64,000 nt of DNA, from positions 62,001 through 126,000 of the forward strand of contig NZ_FXTM01000001.1 of NCBI RefSeq assembly GCF_900182585.1. The letters are read 5' to 3'. The notes beneath the pieces were generated by a model that did no database searches, was not told where the DNA came from, and saw nothing but the letters and a program-made list of their open reading frames with translations. Source of the DNA: Balnearium lithotrophicum (GTDB lineage: Bacteria > Aquificota > Aquificia > Desulfurobacteriales > Desulfurobacteriaceae). Shown one piece after another: positions 26,622 to 40,613 of this stretch. The first letter of the stretch is position 1. Each line of letters starts with the position of its first letter. A program made the position numbers and the translations under genes.

Positions 26622-27297
26622 CCCTGAAGCTCTATTTTCGATAAAGCTTTCCATGAAAGTAGCTTCTCTATCAACGTTATTGGTTTTTACTTTTGGACTT
26701 CCTCTCTCCTACATCTTTGCTACAAAGGAATTTCCACTTAAAAACCTCTTAGATGCCCTCATGACCCTTCCTGTTGTTCTAACCCCTACAGTAACGGGAT
26801 ACATACTCCTCTTGATTTTTGGAAAGAACGGAATAGTGGGGAAGTTTATCTATGAGCTCTTTAAAACGGGGATTGTGTTTACATGGTACGGGGCAGTCCT
26901 GGCCTCCTTCGTTGTCTCCTTTCCCCTCTTTGTAAAGAGTGCAAGGGCTTCGATTGAATCCGTTGATAGAAATTTAATCTACGCCTCGTATACGTTAGGA
27001 AAGAGCGGTCTTGAAACATTTTTTAAGGTTGTCCTCCCTTTAGCCAAGGAAGGAATAATTGCAGGTATCGTCCTCTCCTTTGCAAGAGCTTTAGGTGAGT
27101 TTGGAGCAACCCTCATGATTGCAGGTAACATTCCCTTTAGAACAAATACCATTCCAATAGAAATTTACGATGCTGTATCGAGTGGAGACTTTGAAAAGGC
27201 AAACGTTTTAACGTTAATAGTTACTTTAATCTCAGTCACAGTGATTTTTGTAATTAACAGACTATCAAAAAAAGTAAACTGGAGGAGTAATGTTTAA
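26611..27297 (+). CDS. modB: Molybdate ABC transporter permease ModB
   Basis: A 228-residue inner-membrane protein with five or more hydrophobic helices. The EAA loop is ASYTLGKSGLETFFKVVLPLAKEGIIAG, followed by FARALGEFGATLMIAGNIPFRTNTIP, which is highly typical of ModB. It forms the channel energised by ModC. It overlaps modA by 11 bases and modD by 8 bases. Confidence 0.93.
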   Translation: MVLDPEALFSIKLSMKVASLSTLLVFTFGLPLSYIFATKEFPLKNLLDALMTLPVVLTPTVTGYILLLIFGKNGIVGKFIYELFKTGIVFTWYGAVLASFVVSFPLFVKSARASIESVDRNLIYASYTLGKSGLETFFKVVLPLAKEGIIAGIVLSFARALGEFGATLMIAGNIPFRTNTIPIEIYDAVSSGDFEKANVLTLIVTLISVTVIFVINRLSKKVNWRSNV

Positions 27298-28129
27298 CAC
27301 GGCTGATATTGACAGACTGATTGAGGAGGACGTTCCCTATTTTGACCTGACAAGCTACGTATTAGGTATAGGGGAGGTAAAGGCAGAAGTTGTTTTCCGC
27401 TCAAGGGGAGAAACCGTTATCTGCGGAACTGAGGAGTGTCGTGCAGTTTTTAACAGCTTGGGAATTGAAACAGATAGATTTATACCCTCCGGAACGGTTG
27501 TAAAAGGTGGTGAGGAAATCATATCTGGAGTAGGAAACGGAGAGGCAATTCACAAGGCATGGAAGGTCTGTCAGAACCTACTTGAGTATGCAAGCGGTAT
27601 TGCAACGAGAACCAAGAGGCTCGTTGACCTTGCAAAAAGGGTCAATCCTAAAGCGGTAGTTGTAACAACGAGAAAGACCTTTCCACTGGCCAAGAAGGTT
27701 TGCATAAAGGGGATACTCTGTGGAGGAGCTCTACCCCACAGGTTAGGTCTCTCTGAAACTGTTTTAATCTTTAAGAATCACTACAAACTTTTAGGGGGAT
27801 TTGAGAACTTAGTTAAGAAGTTGGATGAGATTAAACAAAGGGTCCCTGAAAAGAAAATTGTTGTTGAGGCAGAAAATCCTGACGAAGCAAGAATCTTGAT
27901 AGATTCTGGCGTCGATGTTGTTCAATTGGACAAGTTTTCGGTTGGTGACGTTAAGGAAGTAGTCAAATACAGGGATGGGAGAGCTCCACACGTAAAGGTA
28001 GCAGTCGCAGGAGGATTAAACGAGAAAAACATAGAGGAATACGCATCAACGGGAGCAGAAATATTCGTTCTGACATCGGCTTACTTTGGAAAGCCTGCAG
28101 ACATAGGGGTGGAAATAAGGAGATGTTAG
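27290..28129 (+). CDS. modD: ModD, nicotinate-nucleotide pyrophosphorylase-like protein
   Basis: A 279-residue member of the quinolinate phosphoribosyltransferase fold. It has LLEYASGIATRTKRLVD and TTRKTFPLAKKVCIKGILCGGALPHRLGLSETVLIFKNH. Both are the ModD rather than NadC form; NadC has a conserved TRKT-PGLR-EKYAV stretch that differs here. ModD genes are found in molybdenum-uptake operons, but their reaction is not settled. Context agrees: it sits between modB and modC with short overlaps on both sides. Confidence 0.85.
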   Translation: MFNTADIDRLIEEDVPYFDLTSYVLGIGEVKAEVVFRSRGETVICGTEECRAVFNSLGIETDRFIPSGTVVKGGEEIISGVGNGEAIHKAWKVCQNLLEYASGIATRTKRLVDLAKRVNPKAVVVTTRKTFPLAKKVCIKGILCGGALPHRLGLSETVLIFKNHYKLLGGFENLVKKLDEIKQRVPEKKIVVEAENPDEARILIDSGVDVVQLDKFSVGDVKEVVKYRDGRAPHVKVAVAGGLNEKNIEEYASTGAEIFVLTSAYFGKPADIGVEIRRC

Positions 28130-29181
28130 AGTTTGAGGCAGAGAAGCAGTTTAAAAATTTTAACTATTCCGTTTCCTTTAAAACGGACAGTTCTGTAACT
28201 GCCCTATTTGCCCCCTCAGGCTCGGGAAAGAGTTTAACCTTAAAGGTAATTTCTGGTCTCTTAAAGCCAGACAGGGGAGAGGTTTTACTGAACGGTAAAG
28301 TGCTCTTTTCATCTGAAAAGGGAATAAACCTCCCTCCCCAAAGGAGAAAAATAGGTTTCCTTTTTCAGGATTACGCCCTCTTTCCCCATATGACAGTTTG
28401 GGAAAACATAACCTACGCATCCAAGGACTTAGAGCTCTCAAGGAGACTTTTGGAGCTCCTTGAAATAGAAAGGATAAAGGATAAGTATCCTAAACAAATT
28501 TCAGGAGGAGAGAAGCAGAGGGTTGCACTGGCAAGAGCTCTATCAACAAAGCCGGAGCTCCTCCTCTTAGATGAGCCCTTTTCTGCCCTTCACAAAACAC
28601 TCAAAGAGAGTCTATACAGGGAACTTAGAAGAGTTATCGACGAGTTTGGAATCCCTGTAGTATTGGTTACACACGATGTTGAGGAGGTCTTCAGACTGGC
28701 AGAAAATGTTGTTGTCTTGGACAGGGGAAGGGTTGTCCAAACTGGAGAGCCCCACGAGGTATTTTTTAATCCAAAGAACGTTAAAACTGCAAAACTCTTT
28801 GGCCATAAAAATTTTCTAAAGGGCACTGTTTTTAAGAATGAAAAAAATTTTACCGTTGTTAAGGTTGGAAGGGACTTGATAAAGTGTAGAAGGAGCGACC
28901 TGAAGTCAGGAGAAGAGGTGACTATTTCTATTCTTCCAATAGCTCCGACAATATCTCCTCAGCTTGAATCCGTGAAGATTAAAGTTTTAGTTGAGGAGAT
29001 AGAGGAGTTTAAGGGTTTTAGTCTTATTCGCGTAGACTATCAGGGGAATAAGATGGAGCTCTCTGTTCCGTCGGCACTCTCTCCAAACTTTATACTTGAA
29101 AGGGGGAGGGAGACGGAGCTCCACCTGGCAGCCGACTACATTTCTGTGATAAAGGAGGAAAGCGTTGAAGAGAAAGGTTAA
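28123..29181 (+). CDS. modC: Molybdate ABC transporter ATPase ModC
   Basis: A 352-residue ATPase. The Walker A motif is [12 protein letters not shown] (about residue 30), the Q-loop [18 protein letters not shown], the signature [14 protein letters not shown] (about 127) and Walker [15 protein letters not shown]-terminal TOBE-like region (about 285-345) may bind molybdate. It powers ModB. It overlaps modD by 7 bases and the molybdopterin-binding gene by 17 bases. Confidence 0.92.
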
Positions 29182-30187
29182 AGTTGAAGATGCAGTGGGG
29201 ATGGTTTTGGTTCACGACATAACCGAAGTGAACCTCGATAGGGGATTTAAGGGTAGAGCCTTTAAAAAGGGGCACATAATAAGGCCTGAGGATGTTGAGA
29301 AACTCAAGAAGTTGGGGAAGGAGTACGTTTACGTTTTAGAGCTCTCCGAGGATGAGGTCCACGAAGATGACGCAGCAAAACTCTTAGCAGATGCCCTTAT
29401 GGGGGAAAACCTCTACAGGGATGAGGAACCAAAGGAGGGGAAGATAAACATCTACTCCAAAGTTTTTGGGGTCTTTAAGGTTGACGTTGAAAAGCTGTTC
29501 CAGTTTAACATAGTAGGAGAGCCCTCGTGTCCCACGATACATACAAACATGTACGTTAAGCCGGGGGAGAAAGTTGCAGCAGTGAGGATTATCTCGTTGG
29601 TAGCTCCGAGAAAGGAGATAGATGAGGCTTTAAAGATAGCAGGAAGTGGAATTATGAAAGTTGTTCCCTTTGAGGAAAAAAGGGCTGGAATGATAATAAC
29701 GGGAAACGAGGTCTACTCTGGAAGGATAGAGGACAGGTTTTACGATAGACTAAAGCCAAAGTTGGAGTTTTTCAAGTGTAAAGTTGAGGAAAGGGTAATC
29801 CTCCCAGATGATAAGGAAAGAATAAAGGAGAAAATTGTTGAGTTTAACGAAAAGTACGATATAGTTGTCCTAACAGGTGGAACGTCAGTCGACCCCGATG
29901 ATGTCACGTACAGGGCAATACGGGAAGCGGGAGCTGAAAACTTCATAAGGGGGAACCCAATTCAACCTGGTAATATGTTCACGATGGGATGGATAAACGG
30001 AAAGCCTGTCGTTGCAGTTCCAGCGGCAGCACTCTTTTACAAAGCTACATCCTTTGACATCTGGCTCCCAAGGCTCTTAATAGGGGACGTGATTACCAAG
30101 GAAGAGGTTGCCGCTAAGGGACACGGAGGTCTGTGCCATAACTGTCCAGTGTGTGTATTTCCAATATGTCCTTTCGGGAGACCGTAA
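29165..30187 (+). CDS. Molybdopterin-binding protein with a Cys-rich tail
   Basis: A 340-residue protein starting at TTG 29165 with AAGGAGGAAAGCG upstream. The first ~65 residues form a SAF-like or small beta domain. The core has the MoCF/MogA fold: [17 protein letters not shown] (about 180) and [18 protein letters not shown] (about 237). The C-terminus is unusual, ending in [18 protein letters not shown] with five cysteines in 16 residues, which suggests a metal or Fe-S site. This domain order is known among clostridial and deltaproteobacterial proteins annotated as molybdopterin-binding. It likely adenylylates molybdopterin or inserts the metal with MoeA. Confidence 0.8.
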
Positions 30188-31392
30188 TGAGGGTAATTAG
30201 GGAAGAGGCAAAGGAAATAATATTTGAAAATGTAAAACCGATTAAAAACGTTGAAACAGTAACACTTGAAAAAGCTGAAGGTAGAGTTCTTTCTGAGGAT
30301 GTCCTCTCTCCGATAGACGTTCCTGACGTTAACAAATCGGCAGTCGATGGGTATGCATTTAGGAGTTCCTCCTTGAAGGAAACTCCGGCAAAACTGAAAA
30401 TAGTAGGTGAGACTGCTGCAGGGGATACTGAGAGAAAGAGGGTAGATGAGGGTGAAGCTGTTTTTGTTATGACTGGAGGAGAGATACCTGAGGGTGCCGA
30501 TTCTGCCGTTAGGGTGGAGGACGTTGAATTTGGAGGAAAATTTGTAAAAATCGATTTTCCGGTAGAAAAGGGTAACCTTGTAAACTTCAGAGGGGAGGAG
30601 TTTAAGAAGGGAGAGGTTGTCTTAAAGAGGGGAGAGAAAATTTGCGGACTTAAAGTAGCCCTTTTGGCATACTTAGGAGTATACAGTTTAAAGGTTTACT
30701 CCAAACCGCGGATTGGGGTTCTGGTAACGGGAAATGAAATTTTGGAACCTTGGGAAAGTTTTAAGAGGGGGAATGCTTACAACACGAACCTTTACATCGT
30801 AGAGGAGTTTTTAAAGAGAGCCGGGGCCGTTACTTACATAGGTATAGTTAGGGATGACAGGGAAGAGCTCAAAAAGGCCATTGAGGAAGGGATAGACAGG
30901 TTTGATGTTTTAATAACTACAGGAGGCGTTTCAAAGGGCAAGTACGACTTTGTGAAGGAGGTTGTTTCACAAGTTGGCATAGATGTTAAGTTTACCCAAA
31001 CAAATATAAGGCCTGGTAGGCCTTTAGTTTTTGGAACGAAGGGTGAAAAGCTCTTTTTTGGTCTGCCGGGATACCCTTCAGCAACAGTAGTAAACCTCCT
31101 TGAGTTTGTCCTTCCGGCCGTGAAAAAACTATCCGGGAATAGGGATTGGGAGAACAGATATTTAAAGGCATTCGCAGATGAACCGTTACGGTCTAAGAAG
31201 GGAAGGAACGACTTTATCAGGGTAAAATTCCTAAACGATAACGGGGTTTTAAAAGTGAGAAGCTCAGGTAGCCAACAGACTTCCGTTTTTAAGAGTGTTG
31301 TTTTCTCTGACGGTTTTGCTGTTGTTCCAGAGGATAGAGGAAGTGTTGAAAGAGGAGATTTAATAGATATTTTGACTTTTATGGAAATTTAA
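30187..31392 (+). CDS. moeA: Molybdopterin molybdenumtransferase MoeA
   Basis: A 401-residue protein from the ATG at 30187, which overlaps the previous stop (TAATG). The longer start at 30151 has no better ribosome site. The MoeA core begins VTLEKAEGRVLSEDVLSPIDVPDVNKSAVDGYAF; the catalytic Asp is in this SAVDGYA motif. GETAAGD and FVMTGGEIPEGADSAVRVED follow, then the MogA-like domain with ITTGGVSKGKYDFV (about 255) and a C-terminal domain IV. MoeA inserts molybdate into adenylylated molybdopterin. It is the last gene before the cytochrome operon promoter. Confidence 0.93.
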   Translation: MRVIREEAKEIIFENVKPIKNVETVTLEKAEGRVLSEDVLSPIDVPDVNKSAVDGYAFRSSSLKETPAKLKIVGETAAGDTERKRVDEGEAVFVMTGGEIPEGADSAVRVEDVEFGGKFVKIDFPVEKGNLVNFRGEEFKKGEVVLKRGEKICGLKVALLAYLGVYSLKVYSKPRIGVLVTGNEILEPWESFKRGNAYNTNLYIVEEFLKRAGAVTYIGIVRDDREELKKAIEEGIDRFDVLITTGGVSKGKYDFVKEVVSQVGIDVKFTQTNIRPGRPLVFGTKGEKLFFGLPGYPSATVVNLLEFVLPAVKKLSGNRDWENRYLKAFADEPLRSKKGRNDFIRVKFLNDNGVLKVRSSGSQQTSVFKSVVFSDGFAVVPEDRGSVERGDLIDILTFMEI

Positions 31393-31428: not shown

Positions 31429-31456
31429 TTGACAATCGAAATCGAAATTTTGTAAC
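31429..31456 (+). promoter_or_regulatory. Promoter of the multihaem cytochrome operon
   Basis: A perfect -35 box TTGACA (31429-31434) and TGTAAC at 31451-31456 are separated by 16 bases, 34 bases before the GTG start. It is the only full consensus -35 box I noticed in the window. Confidence 0.6.
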
Positions 31457-31463
31457 ATTTCGA
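31435..31463. promoter_or_regulatory. Operator candidate overlapping the cytochrome promoter
   Basis: An inverted repeat TCGAAAT (31442-31448) / ATTTCGA (31457-31463) spans the -10 box. A direct repeat ATCGAA-ATCGAA (31435-31446) fills the spacer. Placement over the -10 suggests repression; the regulator is unknown. Confidence 0.45.
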
Positions 31464-31489
31464 AACCAGCCCAGAAGAGAGGGATAAGC

Positions 31490-32752
31490 GTGGGGATAGA
31501 TAGGCTTGTACTTGCGGCGGTGGGAGCGGGGCTATTGGCCAGCAGTTCCTATGGAGCTGTTAACGTCCCTGGTTTTGAAGGAGAACTCAAGACCCAAGTT
31601 GAGTTTAGACAGGATATTTACGATAGGGATTCTATCCCATTTGATAACTACTTAAAGTTGGACGTGAGGGACCTAAAGGGGACGGAGCTCCACTTTTACG
31701 GAAAACTCTGGAAGGATTTGGGCTATGGAACTGACTGGGACTTAGACCTTTACCAGCTTTACATAGAAGTTCCCTTAAAAGGAGCGAATTCTGTTTTTTC
31801 TGTCGGTAGGCAGTTTATCTCTGAAGGTTTTGAGACGTATACAGCGGATGCTGTTAAGTTTACAAACAGGCTTAAAAATGGCCTCAGGTACACGTTTTAC
31901 TTAGGTAAACCGAGGTTCTTTGAACCTAACACTCCTGATGGTGATGACCTTTTGGCAGGATTTAAGTTTGACTACAAGGGATACTTCTTAGGCTTCGAGC
32001 ACTTAAGGGACGATGGAAAGGTTAAAAAATCCTCGTTTGTGTTTGGGAATTACAGGTACCTGACTGAAAAAATTGCACAGTACAGCAGATTGGAAGTCGA
32101 CACAGCCCACGGTGAATTAACAGACTTCAACCTTGGCCTTAACTACTTTCCTACCAAGAGACTAAGACTTAATACTGAAGTTGAGTACTACGACAACTCC
32201 TACTTTTACGGCGATAAAACAGTTCCCGAGGATAGGATTTTTTACCTCTTTTCACCCAACGGCAGGGAGCTAAGGTTTACTCAGAGTGCTCATTACGACT
32301 TAACAAAGAAGTGGGAGCTTTTCGGTAGCTATACCCTAACTGACGTTCAGAGGGACGGGAAGGACAACGGTTATTTAGCTAAACTTGGAGCAGTGAGGGA
32401 TACCTGGTTTGAAAACGGCTTGAGGGCTTACGGAGCTCTCCTCTATCAAAACAGCTGGATAGGAATTTTAAGGGGAGTTGAATTTGGTTTTACAAAGTAC
32501 GTATGTAGAAAATTGACCTTAAACGGTACGGCTCAGATTGCCAGATACGACAAGGTTACTTATGGAAAACAGTGGGCAAGCGCCTACTACTTGAAGGGTG
32601 TCTATCAAACCAGTGAATTTTCAAATCTTGAATTGGGTGTCGATTACAGAAACAATGAGGATTTTGACCGTGATTTAAGGTTAATCCTCAGGTACAACCT
32701 CCTTTTCTGGGGTGGAACTGGAAAAAAGGAGAGGACAGAGGATAGAAGATGA
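31490..32752 (+). CDS. Outer-membrane beta-barrel, porin-like, first gene of cytochrome operon
   Basis: A 420-residue protein starting at GTG 31490, with an N-terminal signal sequence (LVLAAVGAGLLASSSYGA). The mature part alternates hydrophobic and polar residues in long strands ending in aromatics, for example LRYTFYLGKPRFF, LDLYQLYIEVP and YLKGVYQTSEFSNLELGVDYR, and its last strand LRLILRYNLLFWG ends close to the C-terminus. This is typical of a 16- to 18-strand barrel. No haem site is present. In conduits such as MtrB, ExtD/OmbB-like or Oet-type systems, a barrel next to cytochromes carries electrons across the outer membrane. That role is inferred from context. Confidence 0.72.
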   Translation: MGIDRLVLAAVGAGLLASSSYGAVNVPGFEGELKTQVEFRQDIYDRDSIPFDNYLKLDVRDLKGTELHFYGKLWKDLGYGTDWDLDLYQLYIEVPLKGANSVFSVGRQFISEGFETYTADAVKFTNRLKNGLRYTFYLGKPRFFEPNTPDGDDLLAGFKFDYKGYFLGFEHLRDDGKVKKSSFVFGNYRYLTEKIAQYSRLEVDTAHGELTDFNLGLNYFPTKRLRLNTEVEYYDNSYFYGDKTVPEDRIFYLFSPNGRELRFTQSAHYDLTKKWELFGSYTLTDVQRDGKDNGYLAKLGAVRDTWFENGLRAYGALLYQNSWIGILRGVEFGFTKYVCRKLTLNGTAQIARYDKVTYGKQWASAYYLKGVYQTSEFSNLELGVDYRNNEDFDRDLRLILRYNLLFWGGTGKKERTEDRR

Positions 32753-33348
32753 GAAAATCCATGCTGATTTTTCTAATTGGACTGGCGTTCTTAAGTTCCT
32801 GTGGAAAGGGTAGTGTCAAGTACAGTGAGGAACTTGCTGCTACCGCAAAGTTTCACCATAGGGAACACAAGTCGTTTATAGATAAGCACGGCTGTATTCC
32901 CTGTCATAAGATGAACGTTAAGATGTCCTTTTCTGATATAGAGGCAGCAGAGAGGGGTTCCAAGAAAATAATAATGCCTTCAAAGGTTACCTGCCATTAC
33001 TGTCACAACAATCCTGGAAAAACACCAGCTCCTAACGCACCAACCCAGTGTTACATTTGTCACTTCAACATGAAGGAGATAGAACCTGCCGACCACAAAA
33101 CGGGAAATTGGCTTAAAACTCACAAGTTCGCCTACGAAGGAAAACCTAAAAAGTGTAGTGAGTGTCACAGACAGAGGTTCTGTATCGATTGCCACCAGCG
33201 AAGGGATACAATCCAACACCTTGTTCACCCGAGAAACTACGAGTATACCCACAGTATAGAGGCAGCAGCAGACCCTGCTAAGTGTAGCAGGTGTCACAGG
33301 GTTGGATTCTGTATGGAATGCCATACTAAGGGGAACTGGTCAAGATGA
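32749..33348 (+). CDS. Seven-haem c-type cytochrome lipoprotein
   Basis: A 199-residue protein with a lipobox (LAFLSSC, Cys about 18). There are seven CxxCH motifs: CIPCH, CHYCH, CYICH, CSECH, CIDCH, CSRCH and CMECH, so one haem per ~26 residues. The lipid anchor would place it at the outer membrane facing the periplasm or, if flipped, the cell surface. It overlaps the barrel gene by 4 bases. Such a close barrel-lipocytochrome pair is the basic unit of porin-cytochrome conduits. The redox partner is not known. Confidence 0.85.
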   Translation: MRKSMLIFLIGLAFLSSCGKGSVKYSEELAATAKFHHREHKSFIDKHGCIPCHKMNVKMSFSDIEAAERGSKKIIMPSKVTCHYCHNNPGKTPAPNAPTQCYICHFNMKEIEPADHKTGNWLKTHKFAYEGKPKKCSECHRQRFCIDCHQRRDTIQHLVHPRNYEYTHSIEAAADPAKCSRCHRVGFCMECHTKGNWSR

Positions 33349-34217
33349 GGAAGGGAATACTGCTTACGTTTGTTCTAATTTTAAGCTTCATCAATTCGGA
33401 AGCTAAAGAGTGTGGTGGAAAGGGATACACCGGAACTGACAAATCCTACTGTCTGAGTTGCCATAGGAGTGGTTGTCCTATCGTCCATCCAGTTTCTATT
33501 GAAATTAGAAAGACGGAATGTATCGATGTTCCCGAGAATTTCCCAAGGGCAGAAGATAACAGAATGACCTGTGCAACTTGCCACGATATGACCTCCAACA
33601 GGAAGAAATTCTTAAGGGGAAAGGGAGAGTTTAAGGAGAGGTACTCCTTCTGTTTCCAGTGTCACAATAGAGAGTGTTATAAAAAGTTTAATCCTCACAG
33701 GACAATATCCTCCAAATTAAGTTGGAACGAAAAGAAGAAGGCCTGTATATACTGTCACGGTTTTGGAGCAAAGCTCAACGCTTACAGAGCCTGCGTTGGG
33801 TGCCACACCAAGACTCCTCACGTTGGAGCTCCCGAGCATATCTTTGCAAAGCGGGAGGAGGTTTTAAAACTAACAAAGGGAAAGAAGGAAATTTTTAATG
33901 TATCTACGATGAAACAGTTAAATCCAAAAATTGATATCAATGAACTTAAAAAGAGAAAGCCCAAAGTCATTTTGGTAAACGGAAGGATTGAGTGTATAAC
34001 CTGCCACAATCCACATCCTCAAATTGCCATTCCTGCCCCTCCTGAGAGGAATCCGTGGGGGAGTATGGAGAGGGCAGATTTTGAGTACAAAGTGAAAAAG
34101 CTCAACGAGGAGCTCTCAAAGTTTGAAGTTAACACCAATGGCGTAAAGCTTATGAGTAGAGATTTGAGAAGTGGCAAACTGTGTAAGGTCTGCCACTCCA
34201 TCAACTCGCTTAAGTAG
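33345..34217 (+). CDS. Seven-haem c-type cytochrome
   Basis: A 290-residue protein with a cleavable signal peptide (KGILLTFVLILSFINSEAKE). It has seven CxxCH motifs: CLSCH, CATCH, CFQCH, CIYCH, CVGCH, CITCH and CKVCH. Extra cysteines (CGGKG, SGCPIVH, NRECYKK) may form disulfides. A ~90-residue stretch between motifs five and six has no haem site. It overlaps the upstream gene by 4 bases and is 10 bases ahead of the next, again in one transcript. Predicted periplasmic electron carrier. Confidence 0.83.
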   Translation: MRKGILLTFVLILSFINSEAKECGGKGYTGTDKSYCLSCHRSGCPIVHPVSIEIRKTECIDVPENFPRAEDNRMTCATCHDMTSNRKKFLRGKGEFKERYSFCFQCHNRECYKKFNPHRTISSKLSWNEKKKACIYCHGFGAKLNAYRACVGCHTKTPHVGAPEHIFAKREEVLKLTKGKKEIFNVSTMKQLNPKIDINELKKRKPKVILVNGRIECITCHNPHPQIAIPAPPERNPWGSMERADFEYKVKKLNEELSKFEVNTNGVKLMSRDLRSGKLCKVCHSINSLK

Positions 34218-34227
34218 GGGGTAGAGA

Positions 34228-35316
34228 GTGAAAGCCTTTATATTGGGATTAGCGGGAGCACTTGTAGTTTCCGGTTCGGCCTTTGGAATGAGTGATGATG
34301 GCTGTTTGGTCTGTCATAGGTTAAAGGGACTTTCCGTTGTAGATGAGAAGAATGAAATAAAGGACTGCAGTATTTCTGAAGCTCTCTTTGCCCATTCAAT
34401 CCACAGAAACGTTGGATGTACAGAGTGTCACTCGAAGATTGAGGAGTATCCCCACAAGCCGGAAAACGCAAAGGTTAACTGTGCTACCCAGTGTCACGTT
34501 GTTGACCCTTCAACGAAGAAGCCATTTTCCCACGAGGATGTATTTAAAACCTGGAAGGAGAGTGTTCACGGTAAGAACTACGAAAAGGCTCCAGATGTCT
34601 ATCCTTACTGTACGTACTGCCATACAAACAGCTTACTCGTGGACGTATCAAAGCTCTCTGCTATGAAGATGAGTCTTGATAGGTGTTCAATCTGCCACGA
34701 AAATAAGAGCTGGCTGAAGGACAGACTGTCCCACGTTGCAAGCAGGGAGCCAATTCCAGTTATAAAAAATGGATTTACCCACTCCTTTATTAAGACAAGA
34801 AGGGATGGATGGGAAATTGTAGAGCTCTGTGCCTCCTGCCACGAGGATGAAAAGAAAATGGAAAGAGCTCTTGATATAGAAGGAATTGAAGACAAGTTTG
34901 AGAGAGAGCACGTTCTAACAGCCGTTGAATCCTACAAGGTTACAATGCACTCCAAAATGCTCTACTTGGATAGGAATGATACAAGGGCTGCAGACTGCCT
35001 CGACTGTCATACGAACAAGGACGGTAACTTCCACGATATATTCCATAAAGATAACCCCCGTTCCTCTATAAATGCCAAGAATATTGAGCTAACCTGTGGT
35101 CGTTCAACAGAGTGTCACCCGCTGGCTCCTGCAAAGGATATGAAGAACTTTGCAACAACCAAGTGGGTTCACATGCATCCTATTCCAGACTCTTTAGGAC
35201 AGAAGATAGTTAAGATAGTCGAAGAATTCATGTTCTGGCTCACAACAGGAACTCTCCTCTTTGCAGTTTCAATTGTTGGCTTAGACCTTCTTAAAAACTT
35301 GAGGAGGAAACACTAA
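34228..35316 (+). CDS. Membrane-anchored multihaem cytochrome with unusual haem motifs
   Basis: A 362-residue protein with a signal peptide and a C-terminal membrane helix (about 332-354). Six canonical sites are present: CLVCH, CTECH, CTYCH, CSICH, CASCH and CLDCH. Two further sites have longer spacers: CATQCH (CX3CH, about residue 86) and CGRSTECH (CX5CH, about 290). If both bind haem the protein holds eight. The C-terminal anchor places it on the periplasmic face of the inner membrane, next to the cytochrome b encoded directly after it (stop/start overlap). It probably takes electrons from that cytochrome b. Confidence 0.83.
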   Translation: MKAFILGLAGALVVSGSAFGMSDDGCLVCHRLKGLSVVDEKNEIKDCSISEALFAHSIHRNVGCTECHSKIEEYPHKPENAKVNCATQCHVVDPSTKKPFSHEDVFKTWKESVHGKNYEKAPDVYPYCTYCHTNSLLVDVSKLSAMKMSLDRCSICHENKSWLKDRLSHVASREPIPVIKNGFTHSFIKTRRDGWEIVELCASCHEDEKKMERALDIEGIEDKFEREHVLTAVESYKVTMHSKMLYLDRNDTRAADCLDCHTNKDGNFHDIFHKDNPRSSINAKNIELTCGRSTECHPLAPAKDMKNFATTKWVHMHPIPDSLGQKIVKIVEEFMFWLTTGTLLFAVSIVGLDLLKNLRRKH

Positions 35317-36248
35317 TGGGAATTTGGGAAGCTTTTAAAAGGAGATTTAGGGTAAGGGCAGAGCAGGATAAGCTTCTCATCGTAGACGGTGAGAAGATAA
35401 TGATACAGAAGTTTACTCTCTTTCAAAGGCTCCTCCACGTTGGTATCTTTTCAACGTTCATCTGGCAGATAATTACTGGATACCCCTTAAAGTTCTACGA
35501 TACAGCTTGGGCAAGGCCGATAATAGACTTGTTAGGTGGAATTCCTGGAGAGATGACAATTCACAGAATTTCCGGTTTCATCATGTTTTCAGACTTCCTC
35601 TTAACGGTTCTATACTTGATACTTATTCTCATAGCAAACTGGGATTTGGCAAAGAAGGACTTTTTCGGTTACTTTAAGATTGTTCCCGGACCAACCGACG
35701 TTACATTCGTTCACTACATTAAATATCTCTTAGGATTCAGGAAGGTTCCTCCAGATTGGGACGAGTACATCTGGGTCGATAAGTTTGACTTCTGGGCCGT
35801 TGGTTGGGGTATGCTTGCAATCGGTATTACAGGTTGGATACTCTGGCTTCCAGAGGTTTTTACTGGATTTCTTCACCTTCCGCCAGAAACTGTGCAGATT
35901 GCATACTTGATGCACTCTGACGAAGCTGTTTTGGCCTTAGGCTGGATAGCCTTAGTTCACATGTACATGGTTCACTACGGACCTAACAAGTTCCCGATGG
36001 ACTGGATTTGGCTTACAGGAACAGCCTCAGAGGTAGAGTGGATTGAGGAAAGACCAAGGAGCTACAGGAGAATTATTAAGGCTGTAGCTGAAAACGAACC
36101 CCACCTCTTAGAGAAGTATCCCTTTTTAAAGGAACGTTACGAGTTTGTCCGTGAAGTTGAGAAACTTCCAGAAGAAGAGATGATAGAGAAGATGCACGAG
36201 TACGCTCACCATCTCCTTGAAAAGGAAGTTGAAGGGAGGACTGCATAA
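35316..36248 (+). CDS. Di-haem cytochrome b membrane subunit
   Basis: A 310-residue protein with four or five membrane helices. The N-terminal ~30 residues are cytoplasmic and basic. Histidine ligands for two b haems are likely in LLHVGIFSTFIWQ (helix 1), MTIHRISGFIMF (helix 2) and ALGWIALVHMYMVHYG (last helix). This is the cytochrome b561/formate-dehydrogenase gamma-subunit fold (Ni/Fe-hydrogenase cytB family). It should oxidise or reduce menaquinone and exchange electrons with the c cytochromes on the outside. The C-terminal ~65 residues are soluble and acidic. Confidence 0.82.
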   Translation: MGIWEAFKRRFRVRAEQDKLLIVDGEKIMIQKFTLFQRLLHVGIFSTFIWQIITGYPLKFYDTAWARPIIDLLGGIPGEMTIHRISGFIMFSDFLLTVLYLILILIANWDLAKKDFFGYFKIVPGPTDVTFVHYIKYLLGFRKVPPDWDEYIWVDKFDFWAVGWGMLAIGITGWILWLPEVFTGFLHLPPETVQIAYLMHSDEAVLALGWIALVHMYMVHYGPNKFPMDWIWLTGTASEVEWIEERPRSYRRIIKAVAENEPHLLEKYPFLKERYEFVREVEKLPEEEMIEKMHEYAHHLLEKEVEGRTA

Positions 36249-36961
36249 TGAGAAAGTATCTAATAGCATTGTTACTCATATCAGCACCCTCTTTAGCTGT
36301 AGAGAGTCCTCTTCTCTCTGCTCCATCTGCTGATACATCAACTTGGGCTCAGAAACTTAAGGAGTTTAAGAGGCCTGAGTTACCAAAAGTAAAGGAGTAT
36401 CCTAAGCCGTTTCACTACGAAAACCAATACAGTTATAAAATGAACGATGTCTGTTCGGCATGTCATACATTTGCTGCACACAAGAAGGACAGAAAGTACT
36501 CACCGTTCTACAATGCCCACAGTACATTCATGAGCTGCAACACGTGCCACTTTGTTAAAGAGGGTTTGAACTACAGCTGGGCTGAAATAGACAAAGGAAA
36601 CGTAAAGCTTTTAAAGAGTGGTGATTTCTACGGATTAAAGTATATTAAAGTAGGAAACAGGATTATGCTCTCTGGAGAGGAGAGTAGTGCAAAAATAGTT
36701 CCCGTTTATGAGGGAAAACCTGTAGAGCTTCCTCTTAAGGGAAATGAAGAACTTTTAAAGGATGTCAATTCAGTTGCAAAAATGCACAATGCACTTACGG
36801 ATAATCCGTTAAAGTGTGAGGACTGCCATAAGGAAAATGGAGTTCTTAACTTTAGGGAACTTGGATTCTCAGAGGAGAGAATAAAGGACCTTGAACACAA
36901 CGAGGTTGTAAAGGGATTGAAGGAATACAAAACAATCCACTTCCCCAAATTTATCTGGTAA
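36248..36961 (+). CDS. Three-haem c-type cytochrome
   Basis: A 237-residue protein with a signal peptide (RKYLIALLLISAPSLAVE). It has three CxxCH sites: CSACH (about 76), CNTCH (about 98) and CEDCH (about 196). Further His residues (FAAH, NAHST, MHNAL) may be distal ligands. Haem density is low compared with its neighbours and a ~75-residue soluble part separates sites two and three. I do not recognise the family. It overlaps the cytochrome b stop and precedes the NHL protein. Confidence 0.8.
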   Translation: MRKYLIALLLISAPSLAVESPLLSAPSADTSTWAQKLKEFKRPELPKVKEYPKPFHYENQYSYKMNDVCSACHTFAAHKKDRKYSPFYNAHSTFMSCNTCHFVKEGLNYSWAEIDKGNVKLLKSGDFYGLKYIKVGNRIMLSGEESSAKIVPVYEGKPVELPLKGNEELLKDVNSVAKMHNALTDNPLKCEDCHKENGVLNFRELGFSEERIKDLEHNEVVKGLKEYKTIHFPKFIW

Positions 36962-36973
36962 GGGGTAGAGATA

Positions 36974-37780
36974 ATGAAGAAAGGATTTTTAACTGTTCTG
37001 TTTCTTGTTTTAATGGCAGTTACCACCGTTGCAGGAGAAATAAAGGGAAACTGGAAGTTCCCCTCTGATATAGCCGTTTCAAACGGGAAACTCTACGTCG
37101 TTGATGGTCTGAACAACAGAATTTCAGTCTACGACCTGTACGGTGAACATCTAACGGATATAAGGATTGATTCCCCTTACGGAATTTTTGCCTTTAACGG
37201 CCTTATATATACTGTAAGTCAAAAGGGAAAGCTTACAGTGATGGACGAAAATGGTGGCGTTGAAAAGGTTTTAAACCTCGAAGGAAGGCCTATCGATGTT
37301 GTTAAGATTGGTTCAAAACTCTTTGTAACAGATGGAAAGAGTGAATCTATTGATGTTTACGACCTTGACGGGAACCTTATAAGAAAAGTTGGTGGTAAAG
37401 GAACAGCTCCTGGAAACTTTGTCGGAATATTCCTGAGTGATGCTTCAAAGAATACGTTGTTTGTTGTTGACTCTGTAAATGCCAGGATTCAAGAGTTTAG
37501 TAAGGATGGAAGCTTTGTTCGTCAGTTTGGAAAGTTTGGAATTGAGGAGGGAGACCTCTTTAGACCCAAGGGAGTTGCTTACTGTGGAAATGGAAACTTG
37601 GTGGTTTCAGATGCCATAACTGGAGCTCTTCAGCTTTTCAACATTTACGGCGGTTTTGAAAGGGTAATAGCTAAAGGACTCTACTATCCAACAGCTGTTG
37701 CCTGTTACAGAGGAGAGGTATTTGTCCTTGAACCCCTCAAGAACAGGGTACTTACATTTAAAGTTCAAGGAGTCAAGTAA
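36974..37780 (+). CDS. Secreted NHL-repeat beta-propeller protein
   Basis: A 268-residue protein with a signal peptide (KKGFLTVLFLVLMAVTTVAGE). Five or six NHL-type blades are visible, with repeated patterns such as FPSDIAVSNGKLYVVDGLNNRISVYD and NTLFVVDSVNARIQEFSKDG; between them FVRQFGKFGIEEGDLFRPKGVAY is a classic blade boundary. It has no haem site. NHL proteins are found beside multihaem cytochromes in metal-reducing and syntrophic bacteria and are thought to hold complexes together. The stop touches the start of the 24-haem gene. Confidence 0.85.
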   Translation: MKKGFLTVLFLVLMAVTTVAGEIKGNWKFPSDIAVSNGKLYVVDGLNNRISVYDLYGEHLTDIRIDSPYGIFAFNGLIYTVSQKGKLTVMDENGGVEKVLNLEGRPIDVVKIGSKLFVTDGKSESIDVYDLDGNLIRKVGGKGTAPGNFVGIFLSDASKNTLFVVDSVNARIQEFSKDGSFVRQFGKFGIEEGDLFRPKGVAYCGNGNLVVSDAITGALQLFNIYGGFERVIAKGLYYPTAVACYRGEVFVLEPLKNRVLTFKVQGVK

Positions 37781-40452
37781 TGAGGAAATCACTGCTTCTT
37801 TTGCTGTCAATTTTGGTAGCACCTAACGTTTCAGAGGCAAAACTAAAAAAGAGTATGAAAAAGGAGTGTTTGGTCTGTCATGAGAACTGGCTCCTTGAGT
37901 CAAAGATAAAGTCACCCAATTTGCTAACCACAGAATCCTATAGGGCAGCTGATAAATTAATGTGTTTAACCTGCCACGATGGTTCAATGGCAGACGATAG
38001 GCTCACCTTTTTAGGTTTTAAACACTTCTCACATCCTGTTAATAAAAAAGTACCTGAAGATTTTAAGATGCCAAAAGGTTTTCCCCTTCAAAATGGAAGG
38101 CTCTACTGTGGAACGTGCCATACACCCCATACAAAAACGGGAAGTGAGAAGAAGTTAGACTACACATTTATGAGGGAACCGAACGTAAATTCCTCCCTCT
38201 GTATGAAGTGTCACAAGGAGAATGAGGAGCACGGTAGAAACCACCCAATCTTTAAGGAAGAAAGGGAACCCTTAAAGTTAGAGTATGCCCTTAAAATCGA
38301 AAAGTTGGGTGGAAAACTGACAGACGATGGAAAAGTTAGGTGTGAATCGTGCCACTCTGCCCACAGGGGAAGGGCTAAAAACGCCCTCATTGAAAGGGCT
38401 GACAACTCCCTCCTGTGTTCGGTATGTCACATTGAAAACGTTAATTCAAAGGAACATCCAAACTTTAGGAATCACCCCATACATAAGAAGTTACCTAAAA
38501 ATGCGGATGTTTCTTTCTTTAAGGAAAATAAAGCCGTTACAAAGTCCGTTGAATGTATGACGTGTCACAAGGTTCATAAAGAGGAGAATAAGCACCTCCT
38601 CGTAGCTAACGAGAGGAAACTCTGTATTCTCTGTCACGTTAGCGAGAAACCTGTCCTTAAAACAAAACACAACATAAGCGACAAGGGATGTAGCTCATGT
38701 CACATAGCTCATAAAGCAAAGGGAAGGAAACTGTGGAGTAGGGAGATTCCTGAAGATGCCTTTGACTATGCTGCACTGATTGAGGCACGAGGAAAAACCG
38801 ATATACTCTGTCTATCCTGTCACTATCCTGAACACGTTATAAACGGTAAGGAAGTTGAAACTGTTGGAACGTTAACCCACCCAACAGGTAAGAAGGTTGA
38901 AGGAAAGGTAAAGCTTCCTCTGCCTGGAGGAAGACTTGCCTGTACAACCTGTCATGACCCGCACCATTCGTTCAACAATAATCCAAAGGGTAAATTCCTT
39001 AGAAAGGAGAGGGTATCCTTATGTATAACCTGTCATAGGGAAGAAGCTGATGTTAAAAGGGGAGCTCACGGGGAGATAGATAAGAAAAGGTGGAAAAAGG
39101 GAGACTGTGCAGCATGCCATAACGTTCACAAGGCTAAGGGCGGTTATCTGTCAAGGGTAGTTTATGGAGAAATTTCACCTATGGAACCTCCCGTTGATGG
39201 ATTCTGTCTGGCGTGTCACGACCCAGAGGGTATGGCAAAACACAAGGTTAAGGAAAGTATCTTTAACGAGCACCCAGTAGGTGTTGATAACCCTACGGAT
39301 AAACTTCCTGGAAGGAAGGTTTCTTGTGCAACATGCCACAACCCCCATACCCATAAGGAAGAACTTCTGAGAATTCCCGTTAGAGAAAACTCTAAACTCT
39401 GTATTACCTGTCATACTGATGAGAACTTAACAAACAGTTCCCACGATATCCTTAAAAATAGGAACGTTAAGCTTTCAGAAAAAGAAAGAGAGGAGATTGT
39501 TAAACACGGTTCCTGTTCAATCTGTCACACTCCTCACAATCCTAAGTTTAAAGTTCTCTGGAGCCGAAAACCAGGAAAAGGAGAGACTATTGGAGAAAGG
39601 CTCTGTAGCTCTTGTCACTCTAAAGGAGGTTTAGCTGAAGACAGGACGATAGGTAGGTTTAGCCATCCGATTGGAGAGAAGGTAACCGAAAAGAACAGAA
39701 GTATGATACTAAACTCGAGGCTTCCTCTCGTTAACCAAATGACTGGTCATGTAGCAAAGAGAGGAGAGAAGGGTGTATTTGACTGTGCAACATGTCACGA
39801 CCCCCATAATGGAGCAGATAAAAAGAGATTGATAAGATATACGTTAGAAGGGGATAGTTTACTGTGTACAGCATGCCACAGGGCAGAGAGCAAGGTTATA
39901 GGAACAGACCACGATATGAGAGTGGTTAATAAAAACTTTAAGAATGCCCTTGGAAAGGTAGTCCTTAAAGATGGAGTCTGTTCTGCATGCCACGTTCCCC
40001 ATAAAGCTAAGGACAAATTACTATGGGCAACTGACATCAAGGAAATTTCCGGAAATAGAATGTCAGATTACTGTCTAACCTGCCACTCTAAATCAGGTGT
40101 TGCAAAGGATAAGGTAGTTAAGTTCTACTACCATCCTAAGAAGGATGTTACTGTCAGGAGCTTCGACAGACCCGGAAGGGAAGGTGATTGGCCTATTTTT
40201 GATAAAAATGGAAAGAGGGTACTCGCAGGTGGTGAAATTACATGTGAAACGTGCCACGACCCACACGTTTGGAGTAAGTGGGAGAAAAAACCACCTATGA
40301 AGCCTGTTGAAGGTAGTGCACTCAACAGCTTCTTAAGGAATAGGGACCTAAAAGGTAGTATCTGTGTGGATTGCCACGGTCTGGATGCTCTATTTAGGTA
40401 CAAAATGTTCCACTGGAAGAAAGCACACAGTAAGAAGCCCTCTTACAGGTAA
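37780..40452 (+). CDS. Twenty-four-haem c-type cytochrome with tandem repeats
   Basis: An 890-residue secreted protein (signal RKSLLLLLSILVAPNVSEA). I count 24 CxxCH motifs, from CLVCH near residue 30 to CVDCH near 865, about one haem per 36 residues. Modules repeat about every 140 residues: four copies of a CxxCHxxHKAK-type segment followed by LW/YLS (CSSCH, CAACH, CSICH, CSACH), alternating with GxxxCxTCHDPH segments. These pairs resemble the doubled-CXXCH (c3-like) fold. Such size suits a long electron wire in the periplasm or outside the cell. It has no catalytic domain and no anchor that I can see. Confidence 0.9.
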   Translation: MRKSLLLLLSILVAPNVSEAKLKKSMKKECLVCHENWLLESKIKSPNLLTTESYRAADKLMCLTCHDGSMADDRLTFLGFKHFSHPVNKKVPEDFKMPKGFPLQNGRLYCGTCHTPHTKTGSEKKLDYTFMREPNVNSSLCMKCHKENEEHGRNHPIFKEEREPLKLEYALKIEKLGGKLTDDGKVRCESCHSAHRGRAKNALIERADNSLLCSVCHIENVNSKEHPNFRNHPIHKKLPKNADVSFFKENKAVTKSVECMTCHKVHKEENKHLLVANERKLCILCHVSEKPVLKTKHNISDKGCSSCHIAHKAKGRKLWSREIPEDAFDYAALIEARGKTDILCLSCHYPEHVINGKEVETVGTLTHPTGKKVEGKVKLPLPGGRLACTTCHDPHHSFNNNPKGKFLRKERVSLCITCHREEADVKRGAHGEIDKKRWKKGDCAACHNVHKAKGGYLSRVVYGEISPMEPPVDGFCLACHDPEGMAKHKVKESIFNEHPVGVDNPTDKLPGRKVSCATCHNPHTHKEELLRIPVRENSKLCITCHTDENLTNSSHDILKNRNVKLSEKEREEIVKHGSCSICHTPHNPKFKVLWSRKPGKGETIGERLCSSCHSKGGLAEDRTIGRFSHPIGEKVTEKNRSMILNSRLPLVNQMTGHVAKRGEKGVFDCATCHDPHNGADKKRLIRYTLEGDSLLCTACHRAESKVIGTDHDMRVVNKNFKNALGKVVLKDGVCSACHVPHKAKDKLLWATDIKEISGNRMSDYCLTCHSKSGVAKDKVVKFYYHPKKDVTVRSFDRPGREGDWPIFDKNGKRVLAGGEITCETCHDPHVWSKWEKKPPMKPVEGSALNSFLRNRDLKGSICVDCHGLDALFRYKMFHWKKAHSKKPSYR

Positions 40453-40463
40453 GGAGGTAGACA

Positions 40464-40613
40464 ATGGCAAGGGAAGTTAGCTCAAGGGATATAGAGAAGG
40501 AAGCTTGGATAGTTCTTGCTGCAACTCTTTCTGTTCTACTACTGCCTATTTTGGGTGTCTGGTTTGTTAAATTTGTCCACTGGTACTCTCAATCCATATT
40601 CATGTGGCTCTAA
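40464..40613 (+). CDS. 49-residue membrane peptide closing the cytochrome operon
   Basis: A short gene with AAGGAGG seven bases before its ATG. The product begins with a polar, charged stretch (MAREVSSRDIEKEAW), followed by a single membrane helix (about 16-36, IVLAATLSVLLLPILGVWF) and an aromatic tail (VKFVHWYSQSIFMWL). It begins 12 bases after the 24-haem gene and is followed by the operon terminator, so it belongs to the operon. It could be a small subunit of the cytochrome b complex. I know of no family. Confidence 0.7.
   Translation: MAREVSSRDIEKEAWIVLAATLSVLLLPILGVWFVKFVHWYSQSIFMWL

Follow-up and report, generated by a model that had tools for sequence, protein, structure and literature searches.

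The nine-gene operon at positions 31490–40613 of the window (the whole 64-kb stretch of DNA analysed) is best read as a two-module trans-envelope electron conduit that would connect the quinone pool to surface cytochromes encoded elsewhere in the genome, with a probability of about 0.7. The observations behind this reading are gene content, haem motifs, a barrel prediction, conservation, modularity and co-distribution. In the proposed route, quinol would be oxidized by the b-type cytochrome E and electrons would pass to the membrane-anchored multihaem cytochrome D. The periplasm would then be crossed via the three-haem protein F and protein H, a 24-haem wire, with the NHL protein G and the peptide I possibly acting as assembly or docking parts, and barrel A, plugged by cytochrome C and/or lipoprotein B, would pass electrons through the outer membrane. 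Beyond the barrel, electrons would reach a surface 8-haem lipoprotein and giant 8-haem proteins that probably contain selenocysteine. A first-pass annotation had described the operon as a complete quinone-to-surface route. We find quinone-to-outer-membrane to be the best reading, but the route is not complete to the surface, since no large surface cytochrome is present in the operon.

All nine genes lie on the plus strand with intergenic spacings of −4 to +12 bases, in agreement with the tightly coupled operon first annotated. A 97-base gap separates the start of the operon from a moeA-like gene upstream, and the 3′ end faces a convergent murB-like gene. Position 31429, previously given as the start of the operon, is not a coding start; it marks a promoter-like site within this gap (TTGACA-18-TAACAT, 31429–31458, plus strand; 10/12 matches, by consensus scan only), and the genes begin at 31490. 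Directly upstream, positions 27290–31392 of the window contain ModD-like, ModC-like and two MoeA-like genes, a molybdate-uptake/molybdenum-cofactor-like set, and moeA is a neighbour of the operon in many relatives.

The CXXCH motifs number seven in B, seven in C, six in D, three in F and 24 in H, giving a sum of 47, where residue-shuffled versions of the same proteins have means of 0.006–0.17. Protein D also has a CX3CH motif at residue 85 and a CX5CH motif at residue 290, and including them raises the sum to 49. Because the Cys and His of both unusual motifs are invariant in 20 homologues, the earlier prediction of 47–49 c haems is right. No multihaem gene other than those of the operon is present in the 64-kb window.

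Genes A, B and C constitute the outer-membrane module. Gene A (31490–32752, plus strand) encodes a predicted outer-membrane β-barrel of 420 residues with a signal peptide and no haem. Its AlphaFold2 model, built on a shallow alignment of 16 sequences, has 22 strands (pLDDT 77.5) and no plug domain of its own. Foldseek matches the model to pilus ushers and to porins of the OprD/Occ, AlgE and MOMP kinds, with no specific relative in the PDB, and the sequence gives a weak Porin_4 match. Barrel A is translationally coupled to B (32749–33348, plus strand), a 7-haem c-type lipoprotein of 199 residues with lipobox LSSC, in which the lipobox Cys and the haem Cys are invariant among 13 homologues. Gene C (33345–34217, plus strand) encodes a conserved 7-haem periplasmic cytochrome c of 290 residues that matches Paired_CXXCH and Cytochrome_C7. 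PDB sequence searches with profiles of A, C, D and E returned no match, and the search with B gave weak local matches only. A barrel modelled with 22 strands and encoded beside a lipoprotein cytochrome and a periplasmic cytochrome is the arrangement of a porin–cytochrome conduit, and B, C or both may be inserted in the barrel.

The remaining six genes, also on the plus strand, begin with D (34228–35316), a 6–8-haem cytochrome c whose C-terminal helix (residues 323–361, by model and hydropathy) would serve as a membrane anchor; the AlphaFold2 model of D is of low confidence (pLDDT 49.7). Gene E (35316–36248) encodes a b561-type di-haem cytochrome b with no CXXCH motif. It scores 49 bits against PF01292 (cut-off 30.1), has invariant histidines at positions 41, 83, 200, 215 and 220, and is the candidate quinol-oxidizing subunit. 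Gene F (36248–36961) encodes a 3-haem periplasmic cytochrome with a tetrathionate-reductase-like end and weak local matches to TIGR04315 and PDB 1sp3. It is followed by G (36974–37780), a secreted six-blade NHL propeller with a hydrophobic N-terminal signal and no haems (PF01436 at 43 bits), and by H (37780–40452), a secreted and internally repeated cytochrome that matches Paired_CXXCH at 204 bits and gives weak NrfA/NrfB-type matches in the PDB sequence search. Across relatives, H has 24 haems in most cases, 28 in two genera, where the extra four sit mid-protein, and 13 in the outgroup. The 49-residue peptide I (40464–40613), a predicted single-helix membrane peptide with a hydropathy peak, had been annotated from the window and is a real gene, conserved through the family and order at 43–98% identity. 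The bc1 cytochrome b (PF00033) was found in none of the 22 family genomes (8 of 14 control genomes were positive), which leaves the operon as the candidate b-type quinol:cytochrome c system.

Genes D–I appear to represent an ancestral quinone module, similar in composition to Cbc5/CbcBA of Geobacter. The Cbc5 complex of Geobacter sulfurreducens (cbcEDCBA, including CbcBA) is a menaquinol:ferricytochrome c oxidoreductase (PMC7726332, PMC7894505, PMC11434368) in which the cytochrome b, CbcB, belongs to PF01292 and the membrane-bound CbcA has seven haems (PMC7726332), accompanied by the 12-haem CbcC, the 2-haem CbcD and the membrane protein CbcE (PMC7894505, PMC11434368). A published CbcC tree was rooted with the closest T. 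ammonificans protein (PMC11434368). Compared by composition only, proteins similar in type to these components are found in the operon as E, D, H, F and I. E is a PF01292 protein and would be the counterpart of CbcB; the adjacent D, with its six CXXCH, one CX3CH and one CX5CH motifs and C-terminal anchor, is a membrane-bound cytochrome c of about seven haems, as is CbcA. The operon differs in having (i) a 24-haem H rather than a 12-haem CbcC, (ii) a 3-haem F rather than a 2-haem HAMP protein such as CbcD, with no HAMP match among the operon proteins, and (iii) an additional NHL gene and the outer-membrane module. With a composition like that of Cbc5/CbcBA, a known quinol oxidoreductase, the inner-membrane part of the operon is not new in kind.

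The genome of the window is placed in the Desulfurobacteriaceae (Aquificota), a family of hot-vent, hydrogen-consuming bacteria. A scan of named genomes gave matches only in Thermovibrio, Desulfurobacterium and other Aquificota MAGs, and searches of plasmid and viral contigs returned nothing outside the Aquificota. Across 136 genomes of Aquificota, 20 of the 22 Desulfurobacteriaceae and one order-level relative contain D, with one further match (G065) that is weak and partial; the family genomes without D are G012 and G015 (62% complete, with E at a contig edge). Barrel A is present in 16 genomes of the same 136, all of them Desulfurobacteriaceae. When the gene order was sought in other Aquificota, the full A-to-I order of the window was found, identical, in 15 relatives (in one of these, contig L040 breaks off inside G).

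The two modules are separable. D-E-F-G-H-I without A and C is seen in the order-level relative G022 and in the three genomes of the sister genus g7 that were read, and a fourth g7 genome has D and a short lipoprotein with no A. We also note that the place of A-B-C ahead of D is taken in g7 by a 2-haem lipoprotein that resembles B in its first haem region (L083:14264–14635, L084:13726–14118 and L041:11058–11432). With G022 as the root, a D+E+F tree places g7 outside all barrel carriers with support of 99–100, and the outer-membrane module was therefore either added once after the split or lost at least twice. A single addition of A-B-C is the simpler account, though unproven. The first-pass description of one block thus holds for the coupling of the nine genes but not for their indivisibility, and the 'one route' is a composite. 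Because g7 and G022 keep the quinone module with no detected relative of the barrel, that module must have a role in another route as well, periplasmic or otherwise.

Could A-B-C be of unrelated function, simply sharing a transcript with the quinone complex downstream? The later addition or lineage loss of A-B-C is compatible with such an arrangement, as is the different gene found upstream of A in some carriers. However, the C–D junction is approximately 10 bases in all carriers examined, the gene order is constant in the carriers read, and both modules are missing together from G012. We regard two unrelated systems as very improbable.

A second alternative is a periplasmic respiratory complex, in which E, D, F and H would hand quinol electrons on to an acceptor enzyme, soluble or periplasmic, A would be a substrate porin and B and C would be periplasmic carriers. 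The barrel-free modules of g7 and G022, the short tetrathionate-reductase-like segment in F and the generic porins matched by the fold of A are all consistent with this proposal. No operon gene, however, matches a catalytic fold or a full-length reductase family, translational coupling links the barrel to a multihaem lipoprotein, and the barrel co-occurs with cytochromes of surface type. The nitrate and HAO-type genes also lie in a cluster of their own, with their own NapC/NapGH-like quinol route, and HAO-type genes are kept in G012, which is without the operon. On balance, a periplasmic complex seems unlikely, and the trans-envelope conduit is the reading we prefer.

The separate cluster, in the same genome as the window, comprises NapH-, NapG-, NapD-, NapA-, 4-haem NapM- and NapC-like genes, named from position, length and a NapC/NrfH match, together with an HAO-type cytochrome (L077:5083–13638, on G000:C2; no NapB recognized), and is likely a nitrate-to-ammonium cluster. 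The HAO-type gene appears to be split into two overlapping frames of 383 and 142 residues, possibly by a frameshift. HAO-type multihaem cytochromes (PF13447) occur in 21 of the 22 family genomes, G012 included. Given this separate clustering and the persistence of the HAO-type gene in G012, nitrate ammonification is not a likely role of the operon, and nitrate or nitrite reduction as its function is disfavoured.

None of the named conduit systems was found to match the gene order of the operon, in line with the first-pass annotation. With respect to layout only, Geobacter ExtEFG has a barrel, a lipoprotein cytochrome and a periplasmic cytochrome in the same order (PMC6148476), and the 22-strand barrel A is close in size to ExtB, ExtE and ExtI, for which 18–21 membrane strands are predicted (PMC6148476). 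The operon has two 7-haem proteins, however, where the ExtEFG/ExtABCD conduits have cytochromes of 5 and 12 haems, and in contrast to ExtEFG and ExtABCD its outer-membrane module shares an operon with a quinone module. The PCC3 clusters of Sideroxydans and other iron oxidizers similarly group a porin, an inner-membrane protein and a periplasmic cytochrome of very large size, with 21, 24 or 27 haems (PMC5566968, PMC10734462), but their inner-membrane protein carries two HX13H motifs and is assigned to no family, whereas E belongs to PF01292; PCC3 porins also reach 42 transmembrane regions and the cluster holds a large extracellular cytochrome. OetABI, from Geobacter and ANME-partner bacteria, consists of a periplasmic cytochrome, a barrel and a lipoprotein cytochrome (PMC10553843), the same three component types as in the operon when layout only is compared, but extracellular cytochromes of the OmcX/OmcS-like type are frequent in Oet clusters, for which no quinone module in the same operon is described.

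MtrCAB and DmsE systems share with the operon a barrel and multihaem cytochromes, and H has a DmsE-type repeated haem motif. In the search of the products against conduit families suggested at the outset, no gene reached the MtrA/DmsE cut-off of 192.2 bits (C 13.5 bits, H 140.3 bits), and membership in the MtrCAB/DmsE group was rejected. The operon is also without an OmcA/MtrC lipoprotein. MtrB has 26 strands; an MtrB-type barrel was rejected for A on the basis of its 22 strands, the lack of a PDB sequence match and the absence of MtrB from the top 50 folds.

The earlier statement that no terminal reductase is encoded is correct for the operon but does not extend beyond it, where unlinked surface candidates co-distribute with the barrel. 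These are an 8-haem lipoprotein (G000:C8:23431–24660, at L085:9429–10661; also L102:7280–8488) and giant multihaem proteins (two copies on G000:C22), both found in barrel carriers and both absent from g7 and G012. In the 16 genomes with a completeness of 90% or more, the barrel, the 8-haem lipoprotein and the giant cytochromes are jointly present in 12 and jointly absent in four; the associated p = 0.0005 applies to one pair with genomes counted as independent, but the joint absences trace back to no more than about two evolutionary events, in g7 and in G012. Each of two less complete genomes has one part missing, with no barrel match in G015 and no 8-haem lipoprotein in G017 (89% complete). 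In G007 a giant cytochrome gene is found immediately beyond the operon, and in G009 the 8-haem lipoprotein gene is located 1 kb beyond the operon. The barrel half is restricted to relatives that also carry the giant, predicted selenium-containing surface cytochromes, and the co-distribution identifies the lipoprotein and giant proteins, unlinked in the genome of the window, as likely surface components.

Two further observations concern these gene sets. In G012 (98% complete, genus g3), the operon genes A, B, D and E are missing along with the 8-haem lipoprotein and the giant cytochromes, while HAO-type and tRNA-Sec genes are retained, a pattern that resembles a coordinated loss of the entire route. 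Separately, L074:11497–11856 (G000:C20) encodes a trihaem c7 protein that is PpcA-like, exceeds the TIGR04257 cut-off and has a lipobox-like Cys, and is a candidate periplasmic or outer-membrane carrier.

The giant 8-haem cytochrome genes (L097:5474–9454, L098:7099–11601 and L076:304–2757 in the same genome as the window; also on L099, L100, L101 and L103) are interrupted by a single TGA in frame, after which comes the invariant hairpin TACCGCCAGTTGGCG. A 1-haem open reading frame with a signal peptide stops at the TGA and a 7-haem remainder continues in frame, an arrangement seen in the six giant-family genes read, which come from four genomes, and in one further copy that was aligned. After the TGA, three codons vary at their third positions and are followed by TAC CGC CAG TTG GCG, a stretch that is identical in all copies and kept even in a distant paralogue. 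The hairpin has an AGUU loop and begins about 11 bases past the TGA. Relative to shuffled sequences, z ranges from −0.6 to −2.9 and the extra stability is not significant in every copy; the case for the hairpin therefore rests on nucleotide conservation. The hairpin sequence is absent from the 64-kb window. A tRNA-Sec exceeds the Rfam cut-off in 20 of the 22 family genomes, including that of the window, g7 and G012. The C-terminal tails of the giant proteins are Gly-rich, with a Cys, a hydrophobic helix and Arg/Lys residues, and resemble surface-sorting signals, although no NCBIfam sorting model matched. A precedent exists in Geobacter ExtKL, where a cytochrome predicted to hold selenocysteine is encoded in a porin cluster (PMC6148476, PMC5877670). 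That the conduit feeds giant, surface-anchored selenocysteine cytochromes is suggested by these sequence features, and we put the chances at a little under even.

As for the direction of flow, the parts of the conduit would function either way. Extracellular donors such as Fe(II), sulfide minerals or a partner cell could in principle supply electrons through the barrel to quinone for autotrophic growth; reverse operation of CbcBA has been proposed in Seep-SRB2 (PMC10553843), and the described relative T. ammonificans is a hydrothermal autotroph. H2, however, is given as the sole donor used by T. ammonificans (PMC5441870), and we consider inward flow improbable, favouring instead an outward path to an extracellular acceptor, which might be S0 or Fe(III), for instance. 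The literature searched contains no demonstration of respiration with an extracellular acceptor by any member of the Desulfurobacteriaceae. The mechanism of elemental sulfur reduction in T. ammonificans is described as unclear, in a text that makes no mention of multihaem cytochromes (PMC5441870).

On the conduit reading, most of the family would carry a dedicated quinone-to-outer-membrane route. Relatives with and without the outer-membrane half would offer a direct view of how an inner-membrane quinol oxidase gains a surface conduit, and the co-occurring predicted selenocysteine cytochromes provide concrete targets for the terminal step. If they do receive electrons from the conduit, this deep-branching thermophilic lineage would possess a selenoprotein-terminated extracellular electron transfer chain.
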